The position numbers and the translations under genes were made by a program. The notes under the pieces were generated by a model. It saw nothing but the letters and a program-made list of their open reading frames with translations, did not search any database and was not told the origin of the DNA. Shown here in pieces: positions 4,211 to 25,696 of a stretch of DNA of 45,266 nt. The DNA is from Planctomycetota bacterium (GTDB taxonomy: Bacteria; Planctomycetota; UBA1135; GCA-002686595), in the NCBI GenBank assembly GCA_016220035.1, contig JACRIO010000187.1, forward strand, positions 1-45,266. Direction: 5' to 3'. How positions within the stretch are numbered: the stretch's first letter is position 1; every line of letters starts with the position of its first letter.

Positions 4211-4436
4211 TTTCAGCTCGGTTTTAGGCCTTTTCGGGCGCCGCAGGATCGCGCCGGAAACTCCTGCGCATCGCAGGCCGAGCGCCGCTCTTCTCGACGC
4301 CGCCCGGAGCGGTCGCGGCGACCGAGTTCGCCGCAGGTCCGTCGGCGTGACCGTCCCGAGCGGAGAGTCGACCGAGGCCGGCCCACCTTCGACTTCACAC
4401 GGCGCGGTCGCGCGGCGACCCCACGGGCGATCCGCA

Positions 4437-5015
4437 TCAGCCCATGTGCGCTGCGAGCTCGGCGAGGATGATGGACAGGCGCCAGCGCACCGTCGACTCC
4501 GGGATGCCGAGCTGCGCGGCGATCTCGCGCGTCGGCATGTCGAACACCTTGCGCATCGCGAGGATCTGCCGGTCGTCCTCGGAGAGCGTGTCGAAGGCAG
4601 CGCGCAGGCGTGCGAGATCGTCGCGCTGCTCCGCGTGCGCGCTCGGCGAGCGCGAGGGCCGGCTTCCGCCGGGCTGCGGGAGGTCCCAGAGGGCTTCGGA
4701 CAGCGGCTCCTCGCGCTCGGGGCTCCTGCGCTGGGCCTGGTGGTGGCGGCTCTTGTCGATGATCTTGTGCGTGGCCACCGTGTAGAGATAGCGGCGAAAC
4801 GCGGCCTCGTTCTCGTAGTGGACGGCGGCGCGCCGTTCGTAGAGCTCGCGCACCGTCGACTGCACGACGTCGTCGATCGACTCGCGCGCGCGCAGCGCCG
4901 GACCCGAGCGCAAGCGGACGTAGTAGCGGAGCACGTCGAGGTGGCGTTCGACGAGCGCGTCCAGTTCGACGCGCGTCAACGCGCGCGAGTTGGACTTGGG
5001 ATCGGTTTCGGCCAT
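4437..5015 (-). CDS. RNA polymerase ECF-family sigma factor
   Basis: MAETDPKSNSRALTRVELDALVERHLDVLRYYVRLRSG...DVVQSTVRELYERR (region 2) and LSEDDRQILAMRKVFDMPTREIAAQLGIPESTVRWRLS (region 4 HTH). Start at the CAT complement, 5013-5015. Confidence 0.85.
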   Translation of the reverse strand: MAETDPKSNSRALTRVELDALVERHLDVLRYYVRLRSGPALRARESIDDVVQSTVRELYERRAAVHYENEAAFRRYLYTVATHKIIDKSRHHQAQRRSPEREEPLSEALWDLPQPGGSRPSRSPSAHAEQRDDLARLRAAFDTLSEDDRQILAMRKVFDMPTREIAAQLGIPESTVRWRLSIILAELAAHMG

Positions 5016-5139
5016 GCGGCGTCGATCGCGCTCCTGCACGACCACGCTTCGATTCCAACGCGACGGAGGCGAACGGACAAGGGCCGCGCTGTCGTGAGCG
5101 TGCTCGACGCGCTCGGGAGCTCGTAGACTGGCGCGCCGG

Positions 5140-7788: not shown

Positions 7789-7842
7789 GTGTTCGACGCG
7801 CCTTGACCGCCCTGAAGATCGGTGGGAGAGTCTCTGCCCTTC

Positions 7843-8709
7843 ATGACGAACGAGCTGGACGTCCGCGCGCTCGCGCGCCGCGTGATTGGGCGCGTGCTGG
7901 CCGAACGCGGCCGCGCGGAGCTCGCGACCACGGAACCCCGTGTCGCGGGCGTCTCGCGTCCGACCGGCGTCCACGTCGTCGTCGAGCCCGGCGGAGTTCC
8001 CGCGCGTCCCGCTCCGTCACAGCCGAGCGCGCCCAGGAATTCGGGCTCGGGGCTCGTCACCGCCGACGATCTGCGCTCGACGCCCGACGGAGGGCATTTC
8101 GCGGTGTCGCGCGGGACGATCGTGACCGAGCTCGCGCGCGAGGAGGCTTGGCGTCGGCGCATCGCGCTGACCGACGGATCCGAGACCCCCGAAGCCGCGC
8201 GGCGGAGCGACGCACGCTTGCGCATCGCCGTGGGTGCCGATCACGGCGGCTTCGAGCTCAAACAGGAACTCGCCGAGTGGCTGCGTGAAGCCGGGCACGT
8301 GCTCCTCGACCACGGGACCTTCGATGCGAACACGGTGGACTATCCCGACTTCGCGCGCGCCGTGGCCGAAGCGGTGGCCGACGGCCGCGCCGACGTCGGC
8401 CTCTGCGTCGATGGAGCGGGCATCGGCTCGGCCATGGCCGCGAACAAGGTGCCCGGCGTGCGCGCCGCGAACGGCTTCGACGTCGCGAGCGCGAAGAACG
8501 CGCGTGAACACAACTTCGCGAACGTGCTCACGCTCGGCGGGAAGCGTCTCACCCGGCAGGCAGCGCGCGAGATCGTCGAGGCGTTCCTGACGACCCCCTG
8601 GGGCGAAGAACGGCATGCACGGCGCATCGACAAGATCGATGCGATCGAGCGGCAGTACTCGAAAGCTCCCGCGGCACACCGTCCCAACGACCGAGGAAGA
8701 ACCCGATGA
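7843..8709 (+). CDS. rpiB: RpiB/LacA/LacB-family sugar-phosphate isomerase with about 120-aa N-terminal extension (BMC cargo-like)
   Basis: RpiB core RIAVGADHGGFELKQELAEWL...DYPDFARAVAEAVADGRADVGLC...AMAANKVPGVRAANGFDVASAKNAREHNFANVLTLGG. N-terminus DVRALARRVIGRVLAERG plus a low-complexity linker resembles a microcompartment encapsulation peptide. Confidence 0.85.
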   Translation: MTNELDVRALARRVIGRVLAERGRAELATTEPRVAGVSRPTGVHVVVEPGGVPARPAPSQPSAPRNSGSGLVTADDLRSTPDGGHFAVSRGTIVTELAREEAWRRRIALTDGSETPEAARRSDARLRIAVGADHGGFELKQELAEWLREAGHVLLDHGTFDANTVDYPDFARAVAEAVADGRADVGLCVDGAGIGSAMAANKVPGVRAANGFDVASAKNAREHNFANVLTLGGKRLTRQAAREIVEAFLTTPWGEERHARRIDKIDAIERQYSKAPAAHRPNDRGRTR

Positions 8710-10505: not shown

Positions 10506-11966
10506 ATGCGATCCCCCCTGCATCGGATGGCCCTGCTTTCAGCCTGGGTCTTCGCGCCATCCATGGCCCTCGCCAACCCGACCCCGAGGATCGGGGAAGA
10601 GAGCGGCAAGGGCTCCGAGGCGCTGTTCGTCCGGGCCCAGAAGGTGCTCGTTCGTCCGGGTGTCGTCCTCGAGGACTCGGCCGTCCTGGTGACGAACGGG
10701 AAGATCACGGCGATCGGGAAGGACCTCGCGAAGCCCGAGGGCGCGCGGGAGCTCACCGCCAAGGTCCTCTGCGCCGGCTTCATCGATGCCTGGGGTGCGC
10801 TCGGCCTCGGTGTCGACAGTCTGCGCGACGGCGGCACGGGAGCGGCGACCCGCGCGGCCGATGGGGTCGACGCGTATTCCGACGAACACCTGCGTCGGGA
10901 GACGCTCCGCGCCGGCGTCACGAGCGTGCGCGTCCAGAGTGGAACGACCTCGCGGGTGAGCGGGATCGGTGCGCTCGTGCGCGTCGCTCCGGGCCTCTCC
11001 GTCGAGCGTTCGATCGTGCTGCCCGAGGCGGCGCTGGCCATGAGCATCGGGCTCTCCGCGAACGCATCGAATCAGGGGCCGACCTTCGAGGTCGTCGACG
11101 GACAGGTCGTCCAGCGCGCGAGCTCGATGCGCGGCATGGATCCGTTCGATCGGCTGGCCGACGTCGATCGCGTGACCGCGGCCATCGAGAGCGGTCGCAG
11201 CTACCTCGTCTCGAAGAACGAGTACAAGCACGAGCTCGAGGACTGGCAGAAGAAGATCGCCGAGAAGGAGACCGAGCTCGACAAGGAGTTCAAGAAGGCC
11301 AAGAAGGACCGCGAGAAGGAAGAGAAGGACGCCAAGGAGAAGGGCAAGAAGTTCGAGGAGAAGAAGTACAAGGAAGACAAGAAGCCCACGGCGCCGCGGT
11401 TCGACGACGATTCCGAAACGCTCGCTCGCGTGGCCAATGGCGACCTCCCGCTCGTGGTGCTGGTGCATCGGCACGCGGAACTCCGCGGGCTCTTGAGTGG
11501 GACGGAGAAGCAAGACCGCCTGCGGCTCGTCCTCGAAGGCGCGAGCGAAGCGCTCGCTTTCGCGGAGCAGCTCTCCGCGCGCAACGTGCCCGTGATCCTG
11601 GCGCCGGCCTTGAACGGCAAGGGCGCCGCGGACGAGCTCGAGGGTTCCGACCTGGAGCTCCCGGCCCGGCTGCAGCGCGCCGGCGTTTCGGTGCTGTTCG
11701 GCTCCGGCGGACAGGATCCGGCGGCGAGCCGCGACCTGCCGCTCCTCGTCCAGATGTCGATCGGCCACGGGTTCGAGCGCGAAGCTGCTTTCGACGCGCT
11801 CACCCTCGGCGCTGCGCGCGTGCTCGACGCGGCCGATCGGATCGGCAGCATCGAGCGCGGCAAGGACGCCGACCTGCTGCTCCTCGACGGCGATCCGCTG
11901 ACGAGCGAGGGCCGCGTGCGCTTCGTGATTTCCGCTGGCCGGCTCGTGCTGACTCCGGAGGGTTGA
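10506..11966 (+). CDS. Amidohydrolase-family protein 1 (degenerate; HxH absent), exported
   Basis: RBS-like GGAGGAGTTCGAGG, start MRSPLHRMALLSAWVFAPSMALA; first-strand motif region KVLCAGFIDAWGALGLG; K/E-rich insert; C-terminal DRIGSIERGKDADLLLLDGDPL. Confidence 0.85.
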   Translation: MRSPLHRMALLSAWVFAPSMALANPTPRIGEESGKGSEALFVRAQKVLVRPGVVLEDSAVLVTNGKITAIGKDLAKPEGARELTAKVLCAGFIDAWGALGLGVDSLRDGGTGAATRAADGVDAYSDEHLRRETLRAGVTSVRVQSGTTSRVSGIGALVRVAPGLSVERSIVLPEAALAMSIGLSANASNQGPTFEVVDGQVVQRASSMRGMDPFDRLADVDRVTAAIESGRSYLVSKNEYKHELEDWQKKIAEKETELDKEFKKAKKDREKEEKDAKEKGKKFEEKKYKEDKKPTAPRFDDDSETLARVANGDLPLVVLVHRHAELRGLLSGTEKQDRLRLVLEGASEALAFAEQLSARNVPVILAPALNGKGAADELEGSDLELPARLQRAGVSVLFGSGGQDPAASRDLPLLVQMSIGHGFEREAAFDALTLGAARVLDAADRIGSIERGKDADLLLLDGDPLTSEGRVRFVISAGRLVLTPEG

Positions 11967-11967
11967 G

Positions 11968-13056
11968 ATGAGTTCGTTCGCGCTGTTCCTGTCGCTCCTC
12001 CCCGGAGTCGCCGATCGTCCGCTCGCCATCCGGGCCGAGCACGTCCTGCTCGGCGACGGTCGCACGCTCGAACCGGGCGTCGTGGTGATCGAGGGCGGAA
12101 AACTCCAGCACGTGGGCGCCGAGAAGGACGTCGACGTGCCCGCCGGCGCCGGGCGCATCGACCACAAGGGTTGGCTGAGCGCGGGGCTGATCGGCCTGCA
12201 CGGCTACTCCACCGCGACGGGCGAGCTGCGCGACACGACGCGCACGACGCTGCCCGAGGCGCGCGTCGCATGGGCCTTCGACGCGCGGCATCCGGAATTG
12301 CGCGACCTCCTCGCCGAAGGCGTCACGAGCTTCGTCCTCACGCCCTCGCCGTCGAGCCTCTCGGGCGGGGCGAGCGCCTTCGTGAAGTGCGCGGGCGGGA
12401 AGATCGTCACGCGCGAGGCCCAGTTGTCACTCGGCTTCTCTGATCAGAACCTGTCGTTCAACCGCTTTCCGACGAGCCATGGTGGAGCGCTCGCGGAGCT
12501 CGAGCGCCTGTTCGCGAAGCCGACGGGGACGATCGAGAAGTGCGCGCAGGGCGAGCTTTCCGCGCTCTTCGAGGTCGAAACACCGAGCGACGTCCACCGC
12601 GCGATCGATTTCGCGAAGCGGCACAAGCTCGTCGGCGCGCTCTCGGGCGCGGACTGGACGGGTGAAGTCGCGAAGGACGTCAAGGCGTCGGGACTTTCCG
12701 TCGTCGCGTCGACCCTACGCGTCGGCGAGGACCGGCGGACGCTGCGCGCGATGGTCGCGCTCGGCGCGGCGGACGTGCCCTTCGGATTCGGTCTCGACGC
12801 GCCGTTCAGCCACCCCGCGACGCTGCGGCTGTCGGCCGCGTTGTGCATTCGCGAAGGTCTCGCGCGCGACAAGGCCTGGCGCGGTCTCACCGCGGAGTCC
12901 GCGCGCATCGCGGGTGTCGAGAAGCGCGTGGGCAACCTCGCCGAAGGGCTCGACGCCGACCTCGTGCTCTGGAGCGGTGACCCGTTGGAGCTTTCGAGCT
13001 CGGTCGTCGCGGTCTACGTCGATGGCGAGCGTGCGTTCGCCGCGGAGGAACGATGA
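11968..13056 (+). CDS. Amidohydrolase-family protein 2 (degenerate)
   Basis: RAEHVLLGDGRTLEPGVVVIEGGKLQHVG, then GLIGLHGYSTATG where HxH is expected; C-terminal KRVGNLAEGLDADLVLWSGDPLE. Confidence 0.85.
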   Translation: MSSFALFLSLLPGVADRPLAIRAEHVLLGDGRTLEPGVVVIEGGKLQHVGAEKDVDVPAGAGRIDHKGWLSAGLIGLHGYSTATGELRDTTRTTLPEARVAWAFDARHPELRDLLAEGVTSFVLTPSPSSLSGGASAFVKCAGGKIVTREAQLSLGFSDQNLSFNRFPTSHGGALAELERLFAKPTGTIEKCAQGELSALFEVETPSDVHRAIDFAKRHKLVGALSGADWTGEVAKDVKASGLSVVASTLRVGEDRRTLRAMVALGAADVPFGFGLDAPFSHPATLRLSAALCIREGLARDKAWRGLTAESARIAGVEKRVGNLAEGLDADLVLWSGDPLELSSSVVAVYVDGERAFAAEER

Positions 13057-14303
13057 AGCTCACCTGGATGCTCGGCGGTCTCGCATGCGTCGCTTCGAAC
13101 GCGCACGCGCTCCTACGTCCCGCGGCCGACGACAAGGACGAACGCAAGGCGTGGACGGTGCGCGCGACGAAGATCTACACGTCGACCGGCCGCACCATCG
13201 ACAAGGGCGTGGTCATCGTCAACAACGGGAAGATCAGCGCGGTCACGCCCGGCAGCGACGAGGGCGACGCCTCCACCGAGCTGCGCGTGTACGCGGTGAC
13301 GGCGGGGCTCATCGACGCGAGCGCGCGCATCGGCGTCTCGATGGACGCCGTCGAGCAGTCGCGCGAGGTGGCTCCCGAGGTGCGCGTCGCGAGCGCCGTC
13401 GACCTCTTCTCGCCCGCGTGGGAGCGCCAGGTCGAGTGCGGCGTCACGACCGTGCTCGTGAACCCGCCGGACCGAGACGTGATCGGCGGCCTCGGCGTCG
13501 TGCTCAAGACCGCGGGCGACAACGCGATCGCGAAGCGCACGTTGAAGCCAGACGCCGTGCTGCGCGGCGCGATGGGCAGCGACCCGAGCCAGGGCAACCA
13601 CCCCGCGTTCGGCCGACCGACCGACTTCTACTCGCGCCGTCCGACGACGCGCATGGGTGTCGAATGGGAATGGCGCAAGGCGTTCTTCGACACCGCGCAG
13701 AGCAAGCAGGACGCGTCGAAGAAGTTCCCGGGCGTCGAGCGCCTCGAGGAAGTGCTCGCGGGCAAGCTCACGCTCTCGATCCAGGCGTGGACGACGCAGG
13801 ACATCCGCACCGCCGTCTTCTTGAAGGAGGAGATCGAGCGCGAAGGCTTCGGCAAGCCGCGCCTCTTCATCGACGCCGCAGCGGAAGCGTGGAAGGAACC
13901 GCAACTCCTCGCCCGCTCGAAGACGCCGGTCGTCCTCCCGCCGTTCCCGGTCGGCGGGCGAACGGACGACGGAGCATTCATGGCCTGGAACGTCGCGCAG
14001 CTCCTGCAGGAGCAGGGCATCGTCGTCGCGCTCAGCGCGCACGGCAATTCCGAGCTCGACGGACGCCTCGCGATGCAGGCGGGCTACGCGATGCGCGGAG
14101 GCCTGAGCTTCGACGAGGCACTCGCCGCCGTGACGATCAACCCCGCGCGGCTCCTCGGCGTCGAGGACCGCGTCGGCTCGCTCGAAGTCGGCAAGGACGC
14201 CGACCTCGTGCTCTGGAACGGTGAGCCGTTCGAGCCCACCGCGCGCGTCGTCGGCGTGATCGTCGACGGCGTGTTGCGCGTCGACCCGCGGCCCAAGCAG
14301 TGA
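13053..14303 (+). CDS. Amidohydrolase-family protein 3 (degenerate)
   Basis: ATKIYTSTGRTIDKGVVIVNNGKISAV, TAGLIDASARIGVSMD (no HxH), DRVGSLEVGKDADLVLWNGEP; ATGA overlap with the previous gene. Confidence 0.88.
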   Translation: MKLTWMLGGLACVASNAHALLRPAADDKDERKAWTVRATKIYTSTGRTIDKGVVIVNNGKISAVTPGSDEGDASTELRVYAVTAGLIDASARIGVSMDAVEQSREVAPEVRVASAVDLFSPAWERQVECGVTTVLVNPPDRDVIGGLGVVLKTAGDNAIAKRTLKPDAVLRGAMGSDPSQGNHPAFGRPTDFYSRRPTTRMGVEWEWRKAFFDTAQSKQDASKKFPGVERLEEVLAGKLTLSIQAWTTQDIRTAVFLKEEIEREGFGKPRLFIDAAAEAWKEPQLLARSKTPVVLPPFPVGGRTDDGAFMAWNVAQLLQEQGIVVALSAHGNSELDGRLAMQAGYAMRGGLSFDEALAAVTINPARLLGVEDRVGSLEVGKDADLVLWNGEPFEPTARVVGVIVDGVLRVDPRPKQ

Positions 14304-14404
14304 ACCGCGCACGCGTCGCCTCCAGCCACCTCGCGCAGCCCTGAACGCCGCGCACCCTCCACGAACACACGCAGCTTCGATCCCCGAGACACGCGGAATC
14401 CCCC

Positions 14405-15913
14405 ATGTCGCACCTCATCTCCCGCACGTTCGTCTCCACGGCCCTCTCCCTCGGCCTCCTCGCTCTCGCGCCCGACGCGCACGCCGGCAACGGCAAGATC
14501 GCGATCAAGGCCGGGCGCGTGATCACCATGGTCGGCCCCGACATCGTCAACGGCGTCATCACGATCGAGGACGGCCGCATCACCGGTGTGTCGGCCGACG
14601 CGAAGGCCGCGTGGGATGCCGAAGTGCTCGACCACCCCGAGCTCGTCGCGTTCCCCGGTTGGGTCGAAGCGCACTCGAACCGCGGCATGGACCGCCCGAA
14701 CGAGAACGTCCCGGTCGCGCCGTTCCTCGACGTGCGCGACTCGATCGATCCGATCAGCTTCTACTTCGAGGACTCGCTGCGCGCCGGCGTGCTCACGATC
14801 AACGTGCAGCAGGGCAACGCGTGCGTGATCGGCGGCCAGGGCATGGTCGTGAAGCCGTTCGGACTGACGATCGAGCAGATGCTCGTGAAGCAAGGCTCGG
14901 GCCTGAAGCTCGTCGCCGGCGCGCGCCCGGGTCGCTCGCGCGCGACGCAGGCGCAGGAGCTCCGCAAGGCCTTCCTCGACCTGCGCCAGTACCTCGACAA
15001 GCTCGTGCAGGACAAACAGGACGGCAAGGACTACGCGCGCCGCGAAGCGCTCTTCCAGGGCAAGGACCTCGAGAAGGAAGAGAACAAGAAGGGCCGCGCG
15101 TTCGAGGGCACCGCGAACTGGAAGGTGCCTGGACTCGAGGCGATCCCGCGCGGCGAGATCGACGATCAGAAGGAGCCCCTCTTGCGCCTCGTCGAGGGCA
15201 AGCTGCCCGCGTTCATGTACTGCGATTCGGGTTCCTCGGTGCAACTGGCGCTCGACGTCGCGCGCGCGAACGGGTTCCTCGCGAACACGGTACTCGTGCT
15301 CGAAGGCGACTCCTGGAAGGCCGCCGACGCGATCCTCGAAGCGGGCGTGCCCGTCGTGCTCTCGCCCAACCTGATGTACGTCGAGCGCGATCCGCTCACC
15401 GGCAAGGAGACCGAGACCTTCGTCCCGAAGGTCTTCAGCGAGAAGAAGATCCGGTTCGCGCTCCAGTCGCTGAACCCGAGCGCGCAGTCCTTGTGGTTCC
15501 AGGCGGCGCAGTGCGTCGCCAACGGCCTCGACCGCACCGCGGCGCTCGAAGCGGCGACGCGCACGCCCGCGGACATCCTCCGCCTCGGGAAGCGCGTCGG
15601 TTCGCTCGAGCAAGGCAAGGACGGCAACGTCGTGCTCCTCTCCGGTGATCCGCTCAGCGTGCGAAGCACGGTCCAGTACGTCGTGATCGGCGGCAACCTC
15701 GTCTACGACCGTTCGAAGGACGTGCGCATGAAGCACCTGATGAACGGCGTCGAGCCGAACAACACGGCGCCCGGCGGCGTGATGCTCGATGCGAGCGGCC
15801 ATCCCTGCAACGACGCGCCCACCGTCGACGAGAAGTCGAAGACGGACAAGGGCGAGAAACCGCCCGAGGAGAAGCCGCACGACGATCACAAGGACGAGCC
15901 CAAGAAGGACTGA
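14405..15913 (+). CDS. Amidohydrolase-family protein 4 (degenerate), exported
   Basis: Signal peptide LSLGLLALAPDAHA; VAFPGWVEAHSNRG replaces HxH; KRVGSLEQGKDGNVVLLSGDPL; charged C-terminal tail DEKSKTDKGEKPPEEKPHDDHKDEPKKD. Confidence 0.88.
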   Translation: MSHLISRTFVSTALSLGLLALAPDAHAGNGKIAIKAGRVITMVGPDIVNGVITIEDGRITGVSADAKAAWDAEVLDHPELVAFPGWVEAHSNRGMDRPNENVPVAPFLDVRDSIDPISFYFEDSLRAGVLTINVQQGNACVIGGQGMVVKPFGLTIEQMLVKQGSGLKLVAGARPGRSRATQAQELRKAFLDLRQYLDKLVQDKQDGKDYARREALFQGKDLEKEENKKGRAFEGTANWKVPGLEAIPRGEIDDQKEPLLRLVEGKLPAFMYCDSGSSVQLALDVARANGFLANTVLVLEGDSWKAADAILEAGVPVVLSPNLMYVERDPLTGKETETFVPKVFSEKKIRFALQSLNPSAQSLWFQAAQCVANGLDRTAALEAATRTPADILRLGKRVGSLEQGKDGNVVLLSGDPLSVRSTVQYVVIGGNLVYDRSKDVRMKHLMNGVEPNNTAPGGVMLDASGHPCNDAPTVDEKSKTDKGEKPPEEKPHDDHKDEPKKD

Positions 15914-15916
15914 GCG

Positions 15917-18823
15917 ATGAACGGGAAGCAGTTCCTCCTTCCGGGCCTCGTCGCCGGGGGCGTCGCGCTGACGCTCTTCGCCGGACCCGCGCCGCGCGCG
16001 GGCGCGACGCTCCGCGGAACCGCGGAATGGACCAAGCACGGCGTGGTCGTCGTGCAAGCGGGCACGATCCTGCCCGTCTCGGGCGAGCCGATCCGCGGCG
16101 GAGCGCTCGTGCTCGACGGCCAGCGCATCGTCGCCGTCGGCAAGGACCTTCCGGTCCCGTCAGGCGCGCGCGTCGTCGACTACGGCGCGGACGCGGTCCT
16201 GGTGCCGGGGCTCGTCGCGGCCGACAGCACCTACGGAATCCCGCGTCCGAGCGAGCGCACCGCCGATCCGACACTGCTCGCGATCGACGCCTTCGATCCC
16301 TACGCGAACTTCGTGTTCGCGCTGCAGGAGGGCGTCACCACCGCCTACCTGCCGCCCGCGCGCGGCCGGTTGATCGCGGGGCTCGGTGCGGTCGTGAAGC
16401 TCGGCGGGACCGACGAAGCGCACCGCGTGCTCAGCAGCGCGAACCACATCCACGGCGCGATCAGCACCGAAGCGCGCAACACACCGGGCTACTGGAAGCC
16501 GCCGATTCCCGCGACGGTCGACGTCGGCATGGGTGTGGAGCAGGCGCAGCTCCCGCGTTCGCTCATGGGCGCGATCGTCGCGCTGCAGGAGCTCGTCTCG
16601 ATCGCGCGCGGCGGTGCGGACGACGGTGAATACGGCCCGGACACGGGCCCCGCGCTGCGCGAGCTCGTCGGGAAGCGCATGCCGTGGCGCATGGGTGCCG
16701 CGAGCCCCGAGGAAGTGCGCGCGCTCCTCTCCTTCTTCGACGAAGCGAAGCTCCCGCTCGTGATCGACGGCGCGAACGGCGCCGGAGTCGCGGCCGAGGA
16801 GATCAAGAAGTCGGGCGCGAGCGTCATCGTCGAGGCGCCGTTCACGCCGAACTCGCCCGGGCGCGCGCTCGGCAAGGACCGCGACTCGAAGTGGCCCGAG
16901 TACGACACCGCGTCGAAGCTCGCGGCCGCGGGCGTGCGCTTCGCGATCACGCCGTCGAACAACACGCCGGCGAACGACCTGCGCTTCGCCGCGGGTCTGA
17001 TGTCGCGCGGCGGGCTCGACCGTGACGCGGCGCTGCGCGCGATCACGCTGTCCGCGGCCGAGATCCTCGGCGTCGCCGACCGCGTCGGCAGTCTCGAACC
17101 CGGCAAGGATGCCGACTTCGTCGTGTTCAACGGGCACCCGCTCGACCTCGGCAGCGCCGTGGTGACGACGTGGGTCGACGGCGAGCTCGCGTTCGAGGCC
17201 TACGAGTCCTCCGCGGTCGTGCTCGAGGTCGACGAGCTCCACGTCGGCGACGGCGAGGTGCTGTCGCCGGGCCAGGTGCTGCTCGTCGACGGAAAAATCG
17301 CCGAGGTCGGGCGCAAGGTCGGCCATCCGTCGGGTGCGCGCACGGTGCGCGGCAAAGCCGCGATGCCGGGCATGATCGACGCGCTCGGCCACCTCGGCCT
17401 CGAAGGATCGTCGCGCGTTCCGCCGACGCGCTTTGAGCTCGACCGGCTGGTCGAGCCCGGCGATCGCACCGATCAGCGCGTCGCGAAGAGCGGCGTCACG
17501 ACCGTCGTGCTCTCCCCGCGCGGCCCGAGCCGCAGCGGCGCGCCGATGATGGCGTACAAGCCCGCGGGCGAGGACGTCGAGAAGATGGTCGTCGCCGATC
17601 CCGTCGGCCTGCGCTTCAACTGGACCGAGCGCAACCGCGCGCAGTCGGGTCAGGCGCTGCGCGAGACGCTCGCGAAGGCCGTCGAGTACGACAAGAAGTG
17701 GCGCGAGTACGAGAAGAAGAAGGCCGAGTGGACGCCGCCCAAGGACGAACCCGCCGCCCCGAAGGACGCCGAGAAGAAGGACGGCGAAGCCAAGAAGGAA
17801 GGCGAGGGCGAGAAGAAGGACGACGCCAAGAAGGAAGACGGCGAGAAGAAGGAAGAGGAGAAGGGCGGCAAGAAGAAGAAGGGCGAGGAGAAGCCCAAGC
17901 CCGTCACCGGCGAGTGGGTGACGAAGATCACGCTGCCGCCGCACCCCGAAGCGCGTCTCCGCCTCTACGTGAAGGAGGAGGAAGACGGCTCGATCCACGG
18001 TCTGCTGCGCTGCGCGGTGCTCTCCGACGAGCTCGTGCAGGTCACGGGGAAGCGCGTCGAGAAGAAGGTCACGCTCCAGGGCGACGGCACGAAGGGCGCG
18101 ATTACGCTCGAAGCGGACGAGGTCGACGGCAAGCTCAAGGGCAAGCTGTCGCTCGCGGGCACGAAGCTCGACGTCGAAATCCCACAGACCGCGACCGAGT
18201 ACGAGACCGCGGCACGGCCCGAGAAGCGCAAGACGAAGGAAGAGCCCAAGAAGGAGATCAAGGGCGAACCCAAGTCGCCCGGCGTCGACCCTGAGCTGGA
18301 ACCGTTCCGCCGCGCGATGCACGGCGACGCCGGCATCGTCGTGCAGGCTGAGCGCGACGACGAGATCCGCGCGTGCGTCGACGCCTTCGCGCAGGCCGGT
18401 ATCAAGCCGATCCTCTACGGCGCGAGCGACGCATGGAAGGTGATCGACGCGCTCCAAGGTCGCGTCGCCGGCGTGCTGTTCACGCAGCGCGTGACCGAAG
18501 TCGATCCCGAGCAGGGCGCGAAGAAGCGCAACCGCTACCAGGAGCTCGTCAACGCCGGCATCCCCGTCGCGTTCCACAGCGCGGCGGAGGAGGGCGCGGC
18601 CGACCTGCCGCTGATGGCCGTGTACGCGGTGTCGCAGGGCATGAGCCCCGAGGCCGCGCTGCGCGCGCTCACGAGCGACGCCGCGAGCATGTTCGGCATC
18701 GCCGATCGCGTGGGCCTGCTCGTGCCCGGCTTGGACGCGGACGTGGTGCTCCTCGACGGCAGCCCGCTCGATCCCGCGAGCAGCGTGCTGCGCGTGTTCG
18801 TGCAGGGACACGAGGTGCGCTGA
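15917..18823 (+). CDS. Tandem two-domain amidohydrolase-family protein 5 (both domains degenerate) with K/E-rich linker and a small inserted beta-rich domain
   Basis: 968 aa. Domain 1 VLVPGLVAADSTYG...DRVGSLEPGKDADFVVFNGHPL; domain 2 AAMPGMIDALGHLGLEG...DRVGLLVPGLDADVVLLDGSPL; linker EKKDGEAKKEGEGEKKDDAKKEDGEKKEEEKGGKKKKGEEK. Confidence 0.88.
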   Translation: MNGKQFLLPGLVAGGVALTLFAGPAPRAGATLRGTAEWTKHGVVVVQAGTILPVSGEPIRGGALVLDGQRIVAVGKDLPVPSGARVVDYGADAVLVPGLVAADSTYGIPRPSERTADPTLLAIDAFDPYANFVFALQEGVTTAYLPPARGRLIAGLGAVVKLGGTDEAHRVLSSANHIHGAISTEARNTPGYWKPPIPATVDVGMGVEQAQLPRSLMGAIVALQELVSIARGGADDGEYGPDTGPALRELVGKRMPWRMGAASPEEVRALLSFFDEAKLPLVIDGANGAGVAAEEIKKSGASVIVEAPFTPNSPGRALGKDRDSKWPEYDTASKLAAAGVRFAITPSNNTPANDLRFAAGLMSRGGLDRDAALRAITLSAAEILGVADRVGSLEPGKDADFVVFNGHPLDLGSAVVTTWVDGELAFEAYESSAVVLEVDELHVGDGEVLSPGQVLLVDGKIAEVGRKVGHPSGARTVRGKAAMPGMIDALGHLGLEGSSRVPPTRFELDRLVEPGDRTDQRVAKSGVTTVVLSPRGPSRSGAPMMAYKPAGEDVEKMVVADPVGLRFNWTERNRAQSGQALRETLAKAVEYDKKWREYEKKKAEWTPPKDEPAAPKDAEKKDGEAKKEGEGEKKDDAKKEDGEKKEEEKGGKKKKGEEKPKPVTGEWVTKITLPPHPEARLRLYVKEEEDGSIHGLLRCAVLSDELVQVTGKRVEKKVTLQGDGTKGAITLEADEVDGKLKGKLSLAGTKLDVEIPQTATEYETAARPEKRKTKEEPKKEIKGEPKSPGVDPELEPFRRAMHGDAGIVVQAERDDEIRACVDAFAQAGIKPILYGASDAWKVIDALQGRVAGVLFTQRVTEVDPEQGAKKRNRYQELVNAGIPVAFHSAAEEGAADLPLMAVYAVSQGMSPEAALRALTSDAASMFGIADRVGLLVPGLDADVVLLDGSPLDPASSVLRVFVQGHEVR

Positions 18824-18888
18824 GCGATGCGGACCCCGACCTTCGATGCGAGCTCTGACGCGCGCCTCCGTGCGCGCGGGGAGGCCGC

Positions 18889-20262
18889 TTGACGTCGAAG
18901 GCGCTGTTCGTCGGCTTCGCGAGCGCCGGCATCGTCGGCGTGTGCGCCTTCGGCGCGCTGTCGATGAGCGCGCCCACGGCCGCGCCGGTGACACGGTCGT
19001 GGTGGGACGCTCGCGCGGATTCCGCGCAGGACGCCCCGACGGCTTCGAAGGCGGCGGCCGCGGGTGAACGCACCGCCTCGCGCGGGCTCGCGCTGTTCGC
19101 GCGCAAGGCCGCGGTCGTCGGCCCCGAGGGGCGCGACGTCATCGACGACCCCGTCGTGCTCGTGAAGGACGGAAAGATCGAAGCGATCGGCCCGCGCGCG
19201 ACGATCGCGATCCCCGACGGCTACGAACGCGTCGACCGCGGCGACAAGTGGATCACGCCGGGCCTCGTCGACCTGCACTGCCACATCGCTGGCAAGAGCT
19301 TCCTGGTCAACGACATCAACGACATGGTCTACCTGACCAACCCGGAGCTGCGCGCGAGCTCCGCGGTCGAACCCGGGAACCCGAACCTGAAGCGCGCGGT
19401 CGCCGGCGGCGTCACGAGCGTGCTCTTCATCCCCGGCTCCGGGACGAACATGGGTGGGCAGGGGATCCTGCTGAAGACCGGGCTCGCGCGCTTCGAGGAG
19501 ATGCGCATCCGCGACCCGGGCTCGCTCAAGCTCGCTCAAGCGGGCAACCCCGAGCGCTGGGCCATCAATCCCGGCCGCTCGTTCATGAACTGGAACACGC
19601 GGAGCACGTTCACGCGCGGCCTCACGCACGCGAAGCTCCGCAAGCTGGACCCGACGCTCGCGCGCAACATCCAGTGGGACGCGTTCGGCCCGCTCGCCGA
19701 CCACACGACGCAGGTCTCGACGCACACGCAGATCTTCCAGGTCGTGCTCACGACGCTGACCATGGTGCGGCAAGGCTTCGGGCTCGACGTGTACATCGAC
19801 CACGGCGAGTGGTTCGGGAGCAAGCTCGCGGCGATGGCGAACGAAATCGGCGTGAACGCGATCATCGGCCCGCGCGAGATCGACCGCTTCACGCCCGGCT
19901 TCTCGATCGACACCGACGGCCAGATCCAGGGCATCGCCGCGCAGTACCAGAAGAACGGGCACCAACACATCGGCTTCAACACGGACTCCCCGGTCGTGCC
20001 CGAGGAGGAGCTCCAGGTCCAAGCCGCGACCGCTTGCCGCTACGGCTTCGATGGGACGCGCATGGACGCGCTGCGCGGACTCACGATCGTCCCGGCGCAG
20101 ACGGCGGGCATCGCCGCGCGCGTCGGCAGCCTCGCGCCGGGCAAGGACGCCGACCTGCTCGTGTGCGACGGCGATCCGGTCGACCCGCGCACGACGGTCG
20201 AGAGCGTCTTCATCGAGGGCCGGATCGTCTACGACATGCGCACGGAGGAACGCCGATGGTGA
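18889..20262 (+). CDS. Amidohydrolase (imidazolonepropionase-like), metal-ligand motifs intact
   Basis: WITPGLVDLHCHIAG (HxH), QVSTHTQ, VYIDHGEW, GFNTDSPVVPEEEL, ARVGSLAPGKDADLLVCDGDPV. The track start is TTG at 18889; the exact start is uncertain. Confidence 0.9.
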   Translation: MTSKALFVGFASAGIVGVCAFGALSMSAPTAAPVTRSWWDARADSAQDAPTASKAAAAGERTASRGLALFARKAAVVGPEGRDVIDDPVVLVKDGKIEAIGPRATIAIPDGYERVDRGDKWITPGLVDLHCHIAGKSFLVNDINDMVYLTNPELRASSAVEPGNPNLKRAVAGGVTSVLFIPGSGTNMGGQGILLKTGLARFEEMRIRDPGSLKLAQAGNPERWAINPGRSFMNWNTRSTFTRGLTHAKLRKLDPTLARNIQWDAFGPLADHTTQVSTHTQIFQVVLTTLTMVRQGFGLDVYIDHGEWFGSKLAAMANEIGVNAIIGPREIDRFTPGFSIDTDGQIQGIAAQYQKNGHQHIGFNTDSPVVPEEELQVQAATACRYGFDGTRMDALRGLTIVPAQTAGIAARVGSLAPGKDADLLVCDGDPVDPRTTVESVFIEGRIVYDMRTEERRW

Positions 20263-21611
20263 TGCGAGAGGGGAACCGGACACGGTCGACGGCGGCGCTC
20301 GCGAGCGTGCTCCTCGGCCTCGCGCTCACCGCTCCGGCGCACGCACAGCGCTCCATCGACGCGCAGAACCGCGTCGTCGAGGTGAAGCAGCCGCCCGCGG
20401 CCGGCGAGAAGGGCGGGCCGGGCCTCGCGATCAGGGCGAAGAAGATCCTGACCGTGCCCTACGAGGGCGAACAGTTCGTCGACAACGGCGTCCTGATCGT
20501 CAAGGACGGCAAGATCGAAGCCGTCGGGCCCGCGCGCACGACGCCGATCCCGGCCGACTACCAGGTGCTCGACGTCGGCGACAAGTGGCTCATGCCGGGC
20601 TTCATCGACCTGCACAGCCACATCGCCGGCACGTTCGACATCAACGACATGGTCTACCTGACCAACCCGGGCCTGCGCGTGCATTGTTCGGTGATCCCGA
20701 ACAACGAGGCGTTCAAGGTCGCGGTCGCGAGCGGCGTCACGGCGGTGCTCTACATCCCCGGCTCCGGCGTGAACAGCAGCGGCCAGGGCATCCTCGTGAA
20801 GACGGGCCACGAGCACTACGAGGACGCGGTCGTGCGCGATCCGGGCTCGCTGAAGATCGCGCAAGCGGGCAACCCCGAGAGCTGGGTCATGGGTGTGGGC
20901 CGTTCGTTCATGAACTGGAACACGCGCGACATGCTGAAGCGCGGCAAGACCTACGCGCTGCGCTGGAAGGCTTTCGAGGAGGGCAAGGGCCCGAAGCCCG
21001 AGCGCGACTTGGAGCACGACGTCTTCCGCGAGCTCGAAGCGCACCGCACGCAGATCTCGACGCACACGCAGATGTACCAGGTCGTCATGACGACGATCAC
21101 GATGCTCTCACGCGAGTTCGGGTTCACCGCGTACATCGACCACGGCGAGATGGCCGGCTACAAGGCGGCCGAGCTCGCGCAGGAGAACGGCGTGCGCGCC
21201 ATCATCGGCCCGCGCGAGATCGAGATCCCGACGCGCCAGTTCATCCAATGGACCGGCTCGAACCCCGAGGCAATCCTCGGCATCGCGGCCGAATACCACA
21301 AGCGCGGCGTCAAGGACATCGGCTTCAACACCGACGCGCCCGTGGTGCCGGAGGAGGAGCTGCTCGTGCAGGCGACGACGGCGGCGCGCTACGGGTTTCC
21401 GACGCGCGACCTCGAAGCCGTGCGCGGTCTGACGATCGTCCCCGCCGTGACGGCGGGCATCGCGAACAAGGTCGGCTGCCTGCAACCGGGACGCGACGCG
21501 GACGTGCTCGTGATCGGCGGCGATCCGGCCGATCCGCGGTGCGCGGTCGAGTCGGTCTTGATCGACGGCAAGCGCGTGTACGACGCGGCGACGGAGCGGA
21601 GGCGCTGGTGA
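20256..21611 (+). CDS. Amidohydrolase (imidazolonepropionase-like), metal-ligand motifs intact, exported
   Basis: Signal peptide LASVLLGLALTAPAHAQ; WLMPGFIDLHSHIAG, QISTHTQ, AYIDHGEM, GFNTDAPVVPEEEL. The N-terminal part of ORF 19248-21611 is an off-frame reading of the previous gene. Confidence 0.9.
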   Translation: MVMREGNRTRSTAALASVLLGLALTAPAHAQRSIDAQNRVVEVKQPPAAGEKGGPGLAIRAKKILTVPYEGEQFVDNGVLIVKDGKIEAVGPARTTPIPADYQVLDVGDKWLMPGFIDLHSHIAGTFDINDMVYLTNPGLRVHCSVIPNNEAFKVAVASGVTAVLYIPGSGVNSSGQGILVKTGHEHYEDAVVRDPGSLKIAQAGNPESWVMGVGRSFMNWNTRDMLKRGKTYALRWKAFEEGKGPKPERDLEHDVFRELEAHRTQISTHTQMYQVVMTTITMLSREFGFTAYIDHGEMAGYKAAELAQENGVRAIIGPREIEIPTRQFIQWTGSNPEAILGIAAEYHKRGVKDIGFNTDAPVVPEEELLVQATTAARYGFPTRDLEAVRGLTIVPAVTAGIANKVGCLQPGRDADVLVIGGDPADPRCAVESVLIDGKRVYDAATERRRW

Positions 21612-21628
21612 TCCGACGCGGGAAGGGC

Positions 21629-22915
21629 ATGCATGCGATCGGGGAGCACGCGCGAACGTCGCGAGCTCGACTCGTCGCATCGCTGTTCGTCCTCGCGCTC
21701 GCCGCGTGCTCCGCGACGCGCCACGCGAGGCCCGAGGTCGGCGATCGCCCCGATCTCTCGCCGCTGCGCCCGGGCGAGCGCGGTTTCGCGCTCCTCTGCG
21801 GCAAGGTGATCACCGCCGACGACGAGGGCCGCATGTTCCCGCGCGGGCTGATCCTCGTCCGCAACGGCCGGATCGCATACGTCGGCGAGCGCCGCGACGT
21901 GCCCGCGGGCTACGCGGTCGTCGACTGCGGCGAGCAGTGGGCGATGCCCGGCATGGTCGACCTGCACTCGCACGTACACAGCGGCGGCTTCGGCGACGTG
22001 AACGACATGGTGATCCCGGTGAACCCGGAGTTGCGCGTCGCGCCCGCCGTCGTTCCCGGCAACCCGCTGATCAAGCTCGCGTGCGCGAGCGGCATCACGA
22101 CGCTCTTCGGCATCCCCGGCAGCGGCACGAGCCACTCGGGCTTCGGCATCGTCTACAAGACGAAGGTGCACGCGACGTTCGACGACTGCGTCGTGCGCAA
22201 CCCCGGCGGCATGAAGGTCGCGCAGGCGTACAACCCCGAGCGCCGTGCCGGCGACTTCGGAGCGACGCGCGCGGGTCTCGCGTACATCCTCGAGGACATC
22301 AACGACAAGGCGGTCGGCGCGAACCGCGCGGGGCGGCGCGACATCGCGCTCGAGAACCTGCAGAAGGTCCACAGGCGCGAGCTCCCGGTGCTCATCCACT
22401 CCGCGGGCAGCGACTCGTGGGCCGCCGCCGCGCGCATGTGGCACAACACGTATCACACCGATTGCGTGCTGTCGCACGGCTGCTTCGACGCGCACCTGAC
22501 CGCGCCGTGGATCGCCGAGCAGGGCGTCAAGGTCAACGCCGGGCCGCGCACGATGGACTACCTCGTCACGCGTGACGGCGCGATCACCGGCACGGCCGCG
22601 AAGTACATCGCCGCCGGCGTGAAGAGCGTCTCCGTGAACACCGACGCGCCGGTCATGCCCCAGGAGGAGCTCTTCCTCCAAGGCACGCTGTCCGCGCGCC
22701 TGGGCGCCGACACCTACCTCATGCTGCGGGCCGTGACGATCGAGCCCGCGAAACAGTTCAACCTCGCGCATCGCCTGGGCAGCCTCGAGGTCGGCAAGGA
22801 CGCCGACATCGTGCTGCGCGTGGGCGATCTGCTCGATCCGCGCGGGCGGGTCGAGCGCGTCTGGATCGACGGCGAGATCGAGTACGACCGCGCGCGCGAC
22901 GGACAGTGGTTCTGA
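21629..22915 (+). CDS. Amidohydrolase (imidazolonepropionase-like) lipoprotein, metal-ligand motifs intact
   Basis: Lipobox LVASLFVLALAAC; WAMPGMVDLHSHVHSG, LPVLIHSAG, DCVLSHGCFDAH, VSVNTDAPVMPQEEL, HRLGSLEVGKDADIVLRVGD. An alternative GTG start at 21608 overlaps the previous stop. Confidence 0.9.
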   Translation: MHAIGEHARTSRARLVASLFVLALAACSATRHARPEVGDRPDLSPLRPGERGFALLCGKVITADDEGRMFPRGLILVRNGRIAYVGERRDVPAGYAVVDCGEQWAMPGMVDLHSHVHSGGFGDVNDMVIPVNPELRVAPAVVPGNPLIKLACASGITTLFGIPGSGTSHSGFGIVYKTKVHATFDDCVVRNPGGMKVAQAYNPERRAGDFGATRAGLAYILEDINDKAVGANRAGRRDIALENLQKVHRRELPVLIHSAGSDSWAAAARMWHNTYHTDCVLSHGCFDAHLTAPWIAEQGVKVNAGPRTMDYLVTRDGAITGTAAKYIAAGVKSVSVNTDAPVMPQEELFLQGTLSARLGADTYLMLRAVTIEPAKQFNLAHRLGSLEVGKDADIVLRVGDLLDPRGRVERVWIDGEIEYDRARDGQWF

Positions 22916-22934
22916 GCGCGCGGAGGAAATCCCC

Positions 22935-24263
22935 ATGATGCTGGCCTCACTCCTGATCCCCCTGCTCCCTCTGCCCCTTGGCGGCGACACCAAGCCGGGC
23001 CCGACGCCGAACCTGCTCGCGATACGCGTGGGCAAGGCGGAGACGATCGCGAAGGGCACGATCGAACACGCCGTGATCCTCGTCGAAAACGGCAAGATCG
23101 TGACCATCGGCGAAGACCTCCCGATCGAGCGCGGCATCCCCGTCCTCGACCGGCCGAGCTGGGTCGTCATGCCCGGTCTCGTGAACGCGTACTCGCGCAT
23201 CGGCCTCGACAGCGAAGGCGGCGACGACAGCGCGGCGGAGGTGAAGGCCTCGGCGGAGCTCTACGCGCAGGCGAAGGATTTCCAGGAGATCGTCAAGTAC
23301 GGCGTCACGACGCTCGGGCTCTACCCCGCTGGAAACGGCGTGCCGGGGCAAGCGTGCGCGGTCCGCCCGCTCGGCAAGACGAAGGAGGAGATGCTCCTCG
23401 CCGACGCCTGCTACCTGAAGATCATCGCGCGCGCGTCGCCGAGCGCGAAGAAGCTCATCCAAGACGGCTTCAAGAAGGCGGACGAGTACGCGGAGAAGGA
23501 GAAGAAGGCGCGCGAGAAGTTCGACAAGGACAAGAAGGGCAAGAAGGAAGACAAGAAGGAAGAGAAGAAGGAGGAGCCCAAGCCCGCGCCCGGCGCCGCG
23601 CAGGAACCGGCCGCGGCGGAGGACCCGAAGCCCGAGGAGAAGAAGGACGACGGCTTCGTGCCGCCGGAGCCCGAACCGAAGGCGAAGCCGTGGGTCGACC
23701 TGCGCGCGGGACGCTTGCGCGGGCTCGTCAGCATCAACAGCGCGGCCGAGTTCCTGCACTACGTCGATGCGATCGGCAAGGAGACGTTCTCCTGGGACGT
23801 GCGTCTCGTCGTGCAGCGCGAGAGCGACGTGTTCTACGTGCTCGACAAGAAGACGTACGACCTCGACTTCGACGGCATCGGCGACAAGAAATGCCGCGTC
23901 GTGATGGAGCCCGTGCTGAGCGTCACGCCCGGCACGATGCGCAACCGCAACCTCGCCATGGAGCTCGCGAAGGCCGGCGCGAAGATCGTCTTCATCCCGC
24001 GCAACGACACGCTGATGGACGCGAAGGCGTGGCTCGCCAACGTCGGCGAGATCGTCGGCGCGAACCTCGATCGCAGCATCGCGCTGCGGGCGGTGACGCT
24101 CGAGCCCGCGGAACTGCTCGGCGTCGAGAAGCGCGTTGGCAGCCTGGAAAAAGGCAAGGACGCGAACCTGATCTTCTTCAGCGGCGACCCACTCGAGCCG
24201 ACGAGCAAGCTGGAGGCCGTCATGCTCGACGGCCGGTTCGTGCACGGGGAGGTGAAGCTGTGA
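22935..24263 (+). CDS. Amidohydrolase-family protein (degenerate), exported
   Basis: MLASLLIPLLPLPLGG; WVVMPGLVNAYSRIGLD (no HxH); K/E-rich insert; KRVGSLEKGKDANLIFFSGDPLE. Confidence 0.88.
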   Translation: MMLASLLIPLLPLPLGGDTKPGPTPNLLAIRVGKAETIAKGTIEHAVILVENGKIVTIGEDLPIERGIPVLDRPSWVVMPGLVNAYSRIGLDSEGGDDSAAEVKASAELYAQAKDFQEIVKYGVTTLGLYPAGNGVPGQACAVRPLGKTKEEMLLADACYLKIIARASPSAKKLIQDGFKKADEYAEKEKKAREKFDKDKKGKKEDKKEEKKEEPKPAPGAAQEPAAAEDPKPEEKKDDGFVPPEPEPKAKPWVDLRAGRLRGLVSINSAAEFLHYVDAIGKETFSWDVRLVVQRESDVFYVLDKKTYDLDFDGIGDKKCRVVMEPVLSVTPGTMRNRNLAMELAKAGAKIVFIPRNDTLMDAKAWLANVGEIVGANLDRSIALRAVTLEPAELLGVEKRVGSLEKGKDANLIFFSGDPLEPTSKLEAVMLDGRFVHGEVKL

Positions 24264-25696
24264 TCTCGAAGCGGAACAACATCGAAAGCCTGGTCGCGAG
24301 CTTCGCGCTCGTCTTCGTCACGATCCCCGCGACCGCGTTCGCGTGGCAGGACGCGGGCGGCGACGAGAAGAAGGACGAGAGCGCCGAGAAGAAGAAGGAG
24401 GAGCCCGACAAGTGGTTCGTCGTGAAGAACGCCGAGATCCACACGGGCACCGGAGCCGTGTTGCGCGACGCGATGCTCGTCGCGAAGAACGGCAAGATCG
24501 ACGACATCGGGCACGACCTCGAGATCCCGCCGGATGCGAAGGTGCTCGACGCGCAGGGAATGCGCGTGTATCCGGGCCTCGTCGCCATCTCCTCCTCGGG
24601 CCTGCTCGGGCCCACGACGAGCGACTTCGGCGACACGGTCAATCCGTTCAACTCGAACATGATCCTCGGGCTCGCGACCGGGATCACGACGACGGGCTCG
24701 GGCAACGCGGCGGTGAAGCTCAAGCGCTTCTCGATCAAGGACCTCGTCGTGCGCGAGAAGATCTTTGCCGTCTTCTCGTGGAGCGCGCGCAACCCGTCGG
24801 GCAAGCGCAGCCTGCGCGAGAAGTTCGTCTCGGCCGCGGCCTACTTGCGCGAGTTCCGCGATTGGGAGGACAAGGTCAAGAAGGACAAGGAGCTCAAGGA
24901 GCCGCAGAAGAAGAACGTCGACACGACGGTGCTCGCCGTGCTGAAGGGCGAAACGACGGCGAAGTTCAACGCGAACGATCGCGACGACTTGCTCGGCATC
25001 GCGCACCTCGCGCAGGAGTTCGGCTTCCGGCCCGTCATCGAGGGTTGTGTCGAGGGCTGGACCGTGGCCGACGAGCTCGGCCGCGCCGGCGCGATGGCGA
25101 TCGTGACCGCGCGCGACCGGCGGCCGAAGGACGAAGCGCTCGTGCGCGACGGCGGCTCGAGCATCGAGAACGCGGCCATCCTGCACCGTTCGGGCGTCGC
25201 GGTCGCCGTCGTGTCCGGCACGGAAAGCGTGGACCTCGGCGGCATCGTCGGTCGGGACATCATGGCGCTGCCGATCGAGGCCGACTTCGCGATCCGCGGC
25301 GGTCTCCCGGAGGACGCCGCGCTCGCGTCGATCACGACCACGTCCGCGCGCATCCTCGGCGTGCAGCACCGCGTCGGCTCGCTCGAGGTCGGCAAGGACT
25401 GCGACCTGATCGTCGTCGACAAGGACCTGCTCCACTACGAAGCGTTCGTGCAGTGGACCGTCGTCGACGGGAAGATCGTCTACGACAAGCAGAAGGAGCT
25501 CTACTTCGCGCACATCCGCCCGCGCCCCGACGCGCCGGCCGAGCCGAAGAAGCTCGACAAGGGCGAGACCGAGCCCAAGCCCGACGCCGACAAGCCCAAG
25601 GAAGGTCCCGAAGAAGGCGGCAAGAAGGGCGATGGCGAGAAGAAGAACGGCGACGGCGAGAAGAAGGGCGGCGACGAGGAGAAGAAGGGCGGCTGA
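24260..25696 (+). CDS. Amidohydrolase-family protein (degenerate), exported, charged C-terminal tail
   Basis: GTG start overlapping the previous stop; VASFALVFVTIPATAFA; VYPGLVAISSSGLLG (no HxH); HRVGSLEVGKDCDLIVVD; tail GKKGDGEKKNGDGEKKGGDEEKKGG. Confidence 0.88.
   Translation: MISKRNNIESLVASFALVFVTIPATAFAWQDAGGDEKKDESAEKKKEEPDKWFVVKNAEIHTGTGAVLRDAMLVAKNGKIDDIGHDLEIPPDAKVLDAQGMRVYPGLVAISSSGLLGPTTSDFGDTVNPFNSNMILGLATGITTTGSGNAAVKLKRFSIKDLVVREKIFAVFSWSARNPSGKRSLREKFVSAAAYLREFRDWEDKVKKDKELKEPQKKNVDTTVLAVLKGETTAKFNANDRDDLLGIAHLAQEFGFRPVIEGCVEGWTVADELGRAGAMAIVTARDRRPKDEALVRDGGSSIENAAILHRSGVAVAVVSGTESVDLGGIVGRDIMALPIEADFAIRGGLPEDAALASITTTSARILGVQHRVGSLEVGKDCDLIVVDKDLLHYEAFVQWTVVDGKIVYDKQKELYFAHIRPRPDAPAEPKKLDKGETEPKPDADKPKEGPEEGGKKGDGEKKNGDGEKKGGDEEKKGG

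Follow-up and report, generated by a model that had tools for sequence, protein, structure and literature searches.

Organization of the amidohydrolase array

Contig JACRIO010000187.1 of the Planctomycetota genome assembly GCA_016220035.1 (341 contigs) was analyzed over a stretch of 45,266 nucleotides, hereafter called the window, which carries between positions 10506 and 25696 eleven amidohydrolase domains in ten consecutive plus-strand genes. Three of these domains, encoded by g6-g8, have all metal ligands, and the remaining eight are ligand-poor and belong to seven degenerate genes located on either side of the three intact ones. A first-pass annotation made from the sequence alone had already pointed to this array, which is real, but its count of nine genes, ten domains and six degenerate genes has to be corrected to ten, eleven and seven. 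In the following, the positions are named P1-P6 (ligand-poor), A (intact) and Q1 and Q2 (ligand-poor), with g1-g4 corresponding to P1-P4, g5 to P5 plus P6, g6-g8 to A, g9 to Q1 and g10 to Q2:

10506..11966, plus strand: g1 (P1), apparently exported amidohydrolase-fold protein with lost ligands and a Lys/Glu-rich insert; 39 bits to PF01979; orthologous clade P1
11968..13056, plus strand: g2 (P2), only the first His and the final Asp are left; clade P2 (45/46)
13053..14303, plus strand: g3 (P3), S/R/Q/-/H in place of the ligands
14405..15913, plus strand: g4 (P4), best-conserved ligand-poor position; first His and a pocket of its own are kept
15917..18823, plus strand: g5 (P5 and P6 fused in one chain), both domains ligand-poor; inserted beta domain in P6 (about residues 665-760)
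18889..20262, plus strand: g6, first intact (A) gene; HCH, H, H, D
20256..21611, plus strand: g7, second intact (A) gene; HSH, H, H, D; phmmer E-value of 1.8e-41 to PDB 3ooq
21629..22915, plus strand: g8, third intact (A) gene; HSH, H, H, D; lipobox-like signal LALAAC
22935..24263, plus strand: g9 (Q1), Y/R/S/-/R in place of the ligands
24260..25696, plus strand: g10 (Q2), S/S/N/-/G in place of the ligands; charged C-terminal tail

The genes are separated by gaps of 1-101 bases or overlap by 4-7 bases, in agreement with the short junctions described before, and most of them have a GGAGG-like site upstream of the start. Neither a promoter-like nor a plus-strand terminator-like site was detected within the array, although by a scan that yields no more candidates than shuffled sequences do. 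All ten proteins begin with a hydrophobic, export-like stretch and g8 additionally with a lipobox-like motif, both read from the sequence by eye, which suggests that the array proteins are exported. Lys/Glu-rich low-complexity inserts or tails are present in the ligand-poor proteins g1, g4, g5, g9 and g10, and the three intact proteins are free of them.

Upstream of the array, at positions 5140-7788, a protein kinase and an FGE-sulfatase (sulfatase-modifying factor) domain are joined in one protein. Downstream, genes for a TrpD-like transferase and, at a greater distance, for a PLD protein are conserved in the family to which the window belongs; they were considered as functionally linked neighbors and rejected as housekeeping genes.

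Loss of metal ligands in eight of the eleven domains

All ten proteins match Amidohydro_1 (PF01979) with 28-83 bits, which is above the curated Pfam cut-off of 25 bits, mostly via their C-terminal half. To PDB 3ooq the whole g7 domain could be aligned (E-value 1.8e-41), and the ligand columns were fixed from this alignment. In an alignment of the eleven domains the HxH motif, two more histidines and the final aspartate are all present in g6, g7 and g8, which, together with a conserved lysine, is the set of residues of a catalytically competent metal-dependent amidohydrolase. The proteins g1-g5, g9 and g10 lack this set, because not more than two ligands are left in any of their eight domains. 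In detail, the Asp is left together with the first His in g2, a single ligand remains in g4 (the first His) and in the second domain of g5, P6 (the second His), and in the profile alignment the other ligand-poor domains have no ligand in register. The alignment thus bears out the loss of metal ligands claimed by the first-pass annotation, whose quoted motif strings were all found in the sequence, and intact ligands in the flanking genes, which would have spoken against its proposal, do not occur. In the profile alignment the VHRH motif of g1, the alignment of which had been called unclear, misses the third-His column by one position, but when the eleven domains are aligned directly it can fall into this column.

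The lysine between the second and the third His is found in 108 of 108 intact array domains and is lost in the ligand-poor ones; it is presumably the bridging, carboxylated lysine of the superfamily. More generally, the residues that are invariant in A fall into two sets. The first, in which the ligand-poor domains agree with A, comprises the C-terminal signature and glycines of the scaffold, and the columns G126, G356, T367, A371, G381, G386 and G412 are retained nearly everywhere. The second comprises pocket residues, which are mostly not shared: H89, H91, K177, H253, N334 and D336 are mostly gone in the ligand-poor clades. One P2 protein on the minus strand of another locus (L037 in genome G015, 15427-17292) has HxH, His, His and Asp and is devoid of the lysine invariant in A, and for this reason we did not accept it as proof of an active P2.

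Conservation of the array across Planctomycetota

A profile built from the eleven window domains was run over loci from relatives. The layout of six ligand-poor domains, one to five intact ones and two further ligand-poor ones is strictly kept in 46 distinct genomes from at least 19 families of Planctomycetota, the families being counted from the codes in the genome handles. Twelve further loci were left out of this strict count, either because a gap or frame change interrupted a domain match or because the stretch was truncated. The number of intact copies is one in 15 genomes, two in 9, three in 14, four in 7 and five in a single genome, and across the arrays P5 and P6 are encoded by a single open frame in 66 instances. 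Genome G163 contains the full array twice.

In a FastTree phylogeny of 488 domains every array position forms a pure or near-pure clade (A 108/108; P3, P4 and Q1 46/46 each; Q2 45/45; P1 42/43; P2 45/46; P5 and P6 46/46 with one stray each), and a smaller tree under a mixture model recovered these groups, in which P1, P2, P3 and P5 were less well supported. The clades of the 488-domain tree indicate that the array was assembled once and inherited in order, and that only the number of intact genes varies between arrays. In the genus g191 (genomes G276 and G249) the array is interrupted between P6 and A, and its two parts, P1-P6 and A-Q1-Q2, form separate loci on different contigs. Both half-loci are retained in the two genomes and lie well inside their contigs in G276, and therefore tandem linkage alone is not enough to explain the retention.

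Purifying selection and co-occurrence

Tandem copies that have lost their catalytic residues could be decaying duplicates of the three intact genes. The selection data argue strongly against this. For the closest genome pair (L035 versus L081) the ratio of nonsynonymous to synonymous substitution rates (dN/dS) is 0.07-0.14 for the ligand-poor and 0.03-0.06 for the intact genes, and in four further pairs with moderate dS the values are 0.13-0.40 and 0.12-0.44, respectively. The comparison of the window with L067 gave higher values of 0.32-0.49, and these include the intact genes. A ratio near 1 in the degenerate copies and a lack of conservation in relatives had been named in advance as findings that would refute the first-pass proposal, and both are overturned by these ratios of the closest pair and by the positional orthology in 46 genomes and at least 19 families. 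In addition, the overall conservation of the ligand-poor genes is close to that of the intact genes. The comparisons indicate that the ligand-poor positions are under purifying selection and that the array is not decaying; together with the co-occurrence described below we regard decay as refuted and give it practically no weight.

The co-occurrence was analyzed in a sample of 294 Planctomycetota genomes, in which the A clade was called at a best E-value of at most 1e-60, a cut chosen by us. A is present in 73, P4 in 74 and Q2 in 73 genomes. All three occur together in 69 genomes and none of them in 218, which leaves seven partial cases, several of which are fragmented assemblies or contig ends. 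Pairwise, 71 genomes have A with P4, two have A without P4 and three P4 without A, and for Q2 the corresponding numbers are 71, two and two. The ligand-poor proteins are inactive homologs under purifying selection that are inherited together with an active chain, as is characteristic of pseudoenzyme subunits.

Co-occurrence and selection could also be explained without a stable complex, if the ligand-poor proteins bound A only for the time of its export or maturation, in the role of chaperones, inhibitors or regulators, and the export-like N-termini on all of them would fit. However, eight separate regulators per enzyme would be unusual, and in simpler relatives a degenerate domain is fused to the enzyme, which makes the association permanent there. 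We therefore consider such a transient role improbable.

Pairs, triples and fusions in simpler relatives

Pairs of one intact and one degenerate domain were found in Planctomycetota without the array and also in the window's own genome. Pairs or triples are present at L040, L041, L111-L115, L119, L122-L125 and L127-L132 in Planctomycetota, and outside this phylum at L133 and L134 in Alphaproteobacteria and at L135 in Bacteroidota. At L111, L112, L115 and L040 the intact and the degenerate domain are part of one polypeptide. Triples in the order degenerate-intact-degenerate occur at L122 and, as a single chain of 1270 amino acids (open frame 4297-8106), at L123. Genome G000 contains the fused pair L040 (contig C304), the adjacent intact-degenerate pair L041 (C293) and a lone extra A-type copy, L039 (C103).

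The occurrence outside Planctomycetota is known via plasmid records and is a lower bound: two Sphingomonadales plasmids carry pairs, a Hymenobacter plasmid an apparent degenerate-intact-degenerate triple with broken frames, and Cytobacillus a single intact gene. The pair of Qipengyuania adjoins a peptide transporter.

These systems resemble the array in that an intact gene stands beside degenerate ones, at times in one polypeptide. They differ from it in having one or two degenerate domains instead of eight and an intact member from another clade. Intact and degenerate pair members form two clades with matching internal grouping, and the whole suggests that single enzyme, pair, triple and array form a series, the direction of which we infer. 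A single origin of all degenerate domains is found in the best tree, but in view of a support of 77 and long branches we do not claim it.

A putative exported hetero-oligomeric amidohydrolase

Taken together, the array probably encodes an exported hetero-oligomeric amidohydrolase with non-catalytic paralogous subunits. This is the most economical reading of the data and it is strengthened by the natural intact-degenerate fusions in related systems, although physical assembly, stoichiometry and metal occupancy are deduced. It also supports the earlier suggestion that the ligand-poor paralogs are retained as structural or binding partners of active exported enzymes. The complex would be located in the periplasm or at the outer face, with the metal centre in one chain type, A, represented by one to five paralogs. 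The eight obligatory domains (P1-P4, the P5-P6 chain, Q1 and Q2) would be subunits without catalytic activity, from which the assembly is built and which probably influence how the substrate gains access. It may have grown by duplication of degenerate partners, starting from intact-degenerate pairs or triples of the kind that are still extant.

For the P5-P6 chain, structure prediction is in line with a folded subunit. An AlphaFold2 model of this chain with 17 orthologs reached a predicted local distance difference test (pLDDT) score of 80 and a predicted template modelling (pTM) score of 0.60. Most of both ligand-poor domains lies at pLDDT 80-96 and the best PDB match is 3ooq with a template modelling score of 0.80, so that this chain is predicted to fold as amidohydrolase domains. 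The beta-rich domain inserted in P6 (g5, about residues 665-760) is conserved in relatives.

The pocket columns differ between the ligand-poor positions. Conservation at the ligand columns of P5, P6 and Q2 is mostly below that of the median column, and the substitutions vary between families within one orthologous position, which fits a scaffolding role. P4 retains the first His in 34 of 46 sequences as well as Gly135, Gln180 and Gln348, and because it keeps a pocket of its own it may bind substrate or product and is the candidate binding subunit. Partly conserved new residues are found at the ligand columns of P1, P3 and Q1, and P4 and Q2 are overall as conserved as A. Not every degenerate pocket is thus free of constraint.

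The residues kept in P1, P3, P4 and Q1 and the overall conservation of P4 and Q2 would also fit an operon that encodes a pathway rather than a complex, in which every ligand-poor protein is exported separately and serves a substrate of its own, be it as a binding protein or as an enzyme that works without metal. This is harder to reconcile with the variable columns in P5, P6 and Q2 and with the intact-degenerate fusions in related systems, and eight diverged functions whose composition and order stay unchanged throughout at least 19 families are less economical than subunits. We regard separate functions as rather unlikely, albeit as the strongest competitor of the hetero-oligomer.

Several points weigh against the hetero-oligomer. 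The complex is proposed from genes and sequence comparison, and vertical inheritance in one operon can by itself yield matching trees and co-occurrence. The P5-P6 fusion joins two degenerate domains, and an intact-degenerate fusion does not occur within the array itself. P1, P3, P4 and Q1 with their position-specific pocket residues could bind or act on a target of their own. Finally, the domain arrangement in the P5-P6 model is not firm, given the pTM of 0.60, and the AlphaFold2 model of Q2 was poor (pLDDT 49, seven sequences), which leaves the fold of Q2 unconfirmed by modelling.

As a bolder and tentative extension, which we hold to be somewhat less probable than its opposite, the hetero-oligomer might take the form of a ring or cage in which a single catalytic domain type is surrounded by eight catalytically dead ones, so that at least nine different domains of the amidohydrolase fold would be combined. 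It would then be an exported bacterial counterpart of the paralog-built heteromeric rings of the proteasome and CCT type, with a living series from single enzyme via fused pair or triple to the nine-part array.

Comparison with known systems

Complexes in which an enzyme is accompanied by one inactive paralog are already known. For a conserved set of eight different inactive paralogous domains grouped with a single active type, which roughly one in four Planctomycetota of the sample possess, no description was found in the open-access literature searched, and no account of the intact-degenerate pairs was found there either (most subscription papers and all preprints lie outside this search). 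The retained ligand-poor copies point to a large protein machine that consists mostly of "dead" copies of its own enzyme, and the two- and three-part intermediates form together with the array a natural series in which the growth of heteromers through duplication and catalytic loss can be tested. The array is carried by two complete-genome isolates, Pla163 and Pla86, which we take to be Rohdeia mirabilis and Engelhardtia mirabilis and which make the complex directly testable.

The amidohydrolase 3ooq (TM0814) of Thermotoga maritima is a full-length homolog of g7 with HxH, Lys, His, His and Asp at the same positions. It differs from the array in being a single intact protein, and its PDB entry has neither a stated function nor degenerate partners. 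For most array proteins the best NCBIfam match is NF051886, the group of Xaa-Pro dipeptidases and L-Arg/Lys carboxypeptidases (Cc2672, PDB 3mtw), and 3mtw is also among the PDB matches. The best score of 81 bits (g7) is far below the curated cut-off of 500 bits, so that the array proteins are not members of this family, whose definition has no degenerate partners. The NF051886 and 3mtw matches hint at peptide-like substrates. Since the nearest NCBIfam and PDB matches are dipeptidase-like and the Qipengyuania pair lies beside a peptide transporter, our guess is a peptide-like or amide substrate.

The nearest precedent that we found, an enzyme that depends on an inactive chain with the amidohydrolase fold, is the aspartate transcarbamoylase (ATCase) of Pseudomonas, in which an inactive dihydroorotase subunit (pDHO) of the amidohydrolase superfamily is required for assembly of the hetero-oligomer and for activity (PMC7053772). 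There, a single kind of inactive chain supports an unrelated enzyme, the ATCase, in pyrimidine synthesis (PMC7053772), whereas the array combines eight kinds of inactive domains with their own active paralog and is apparently exported.

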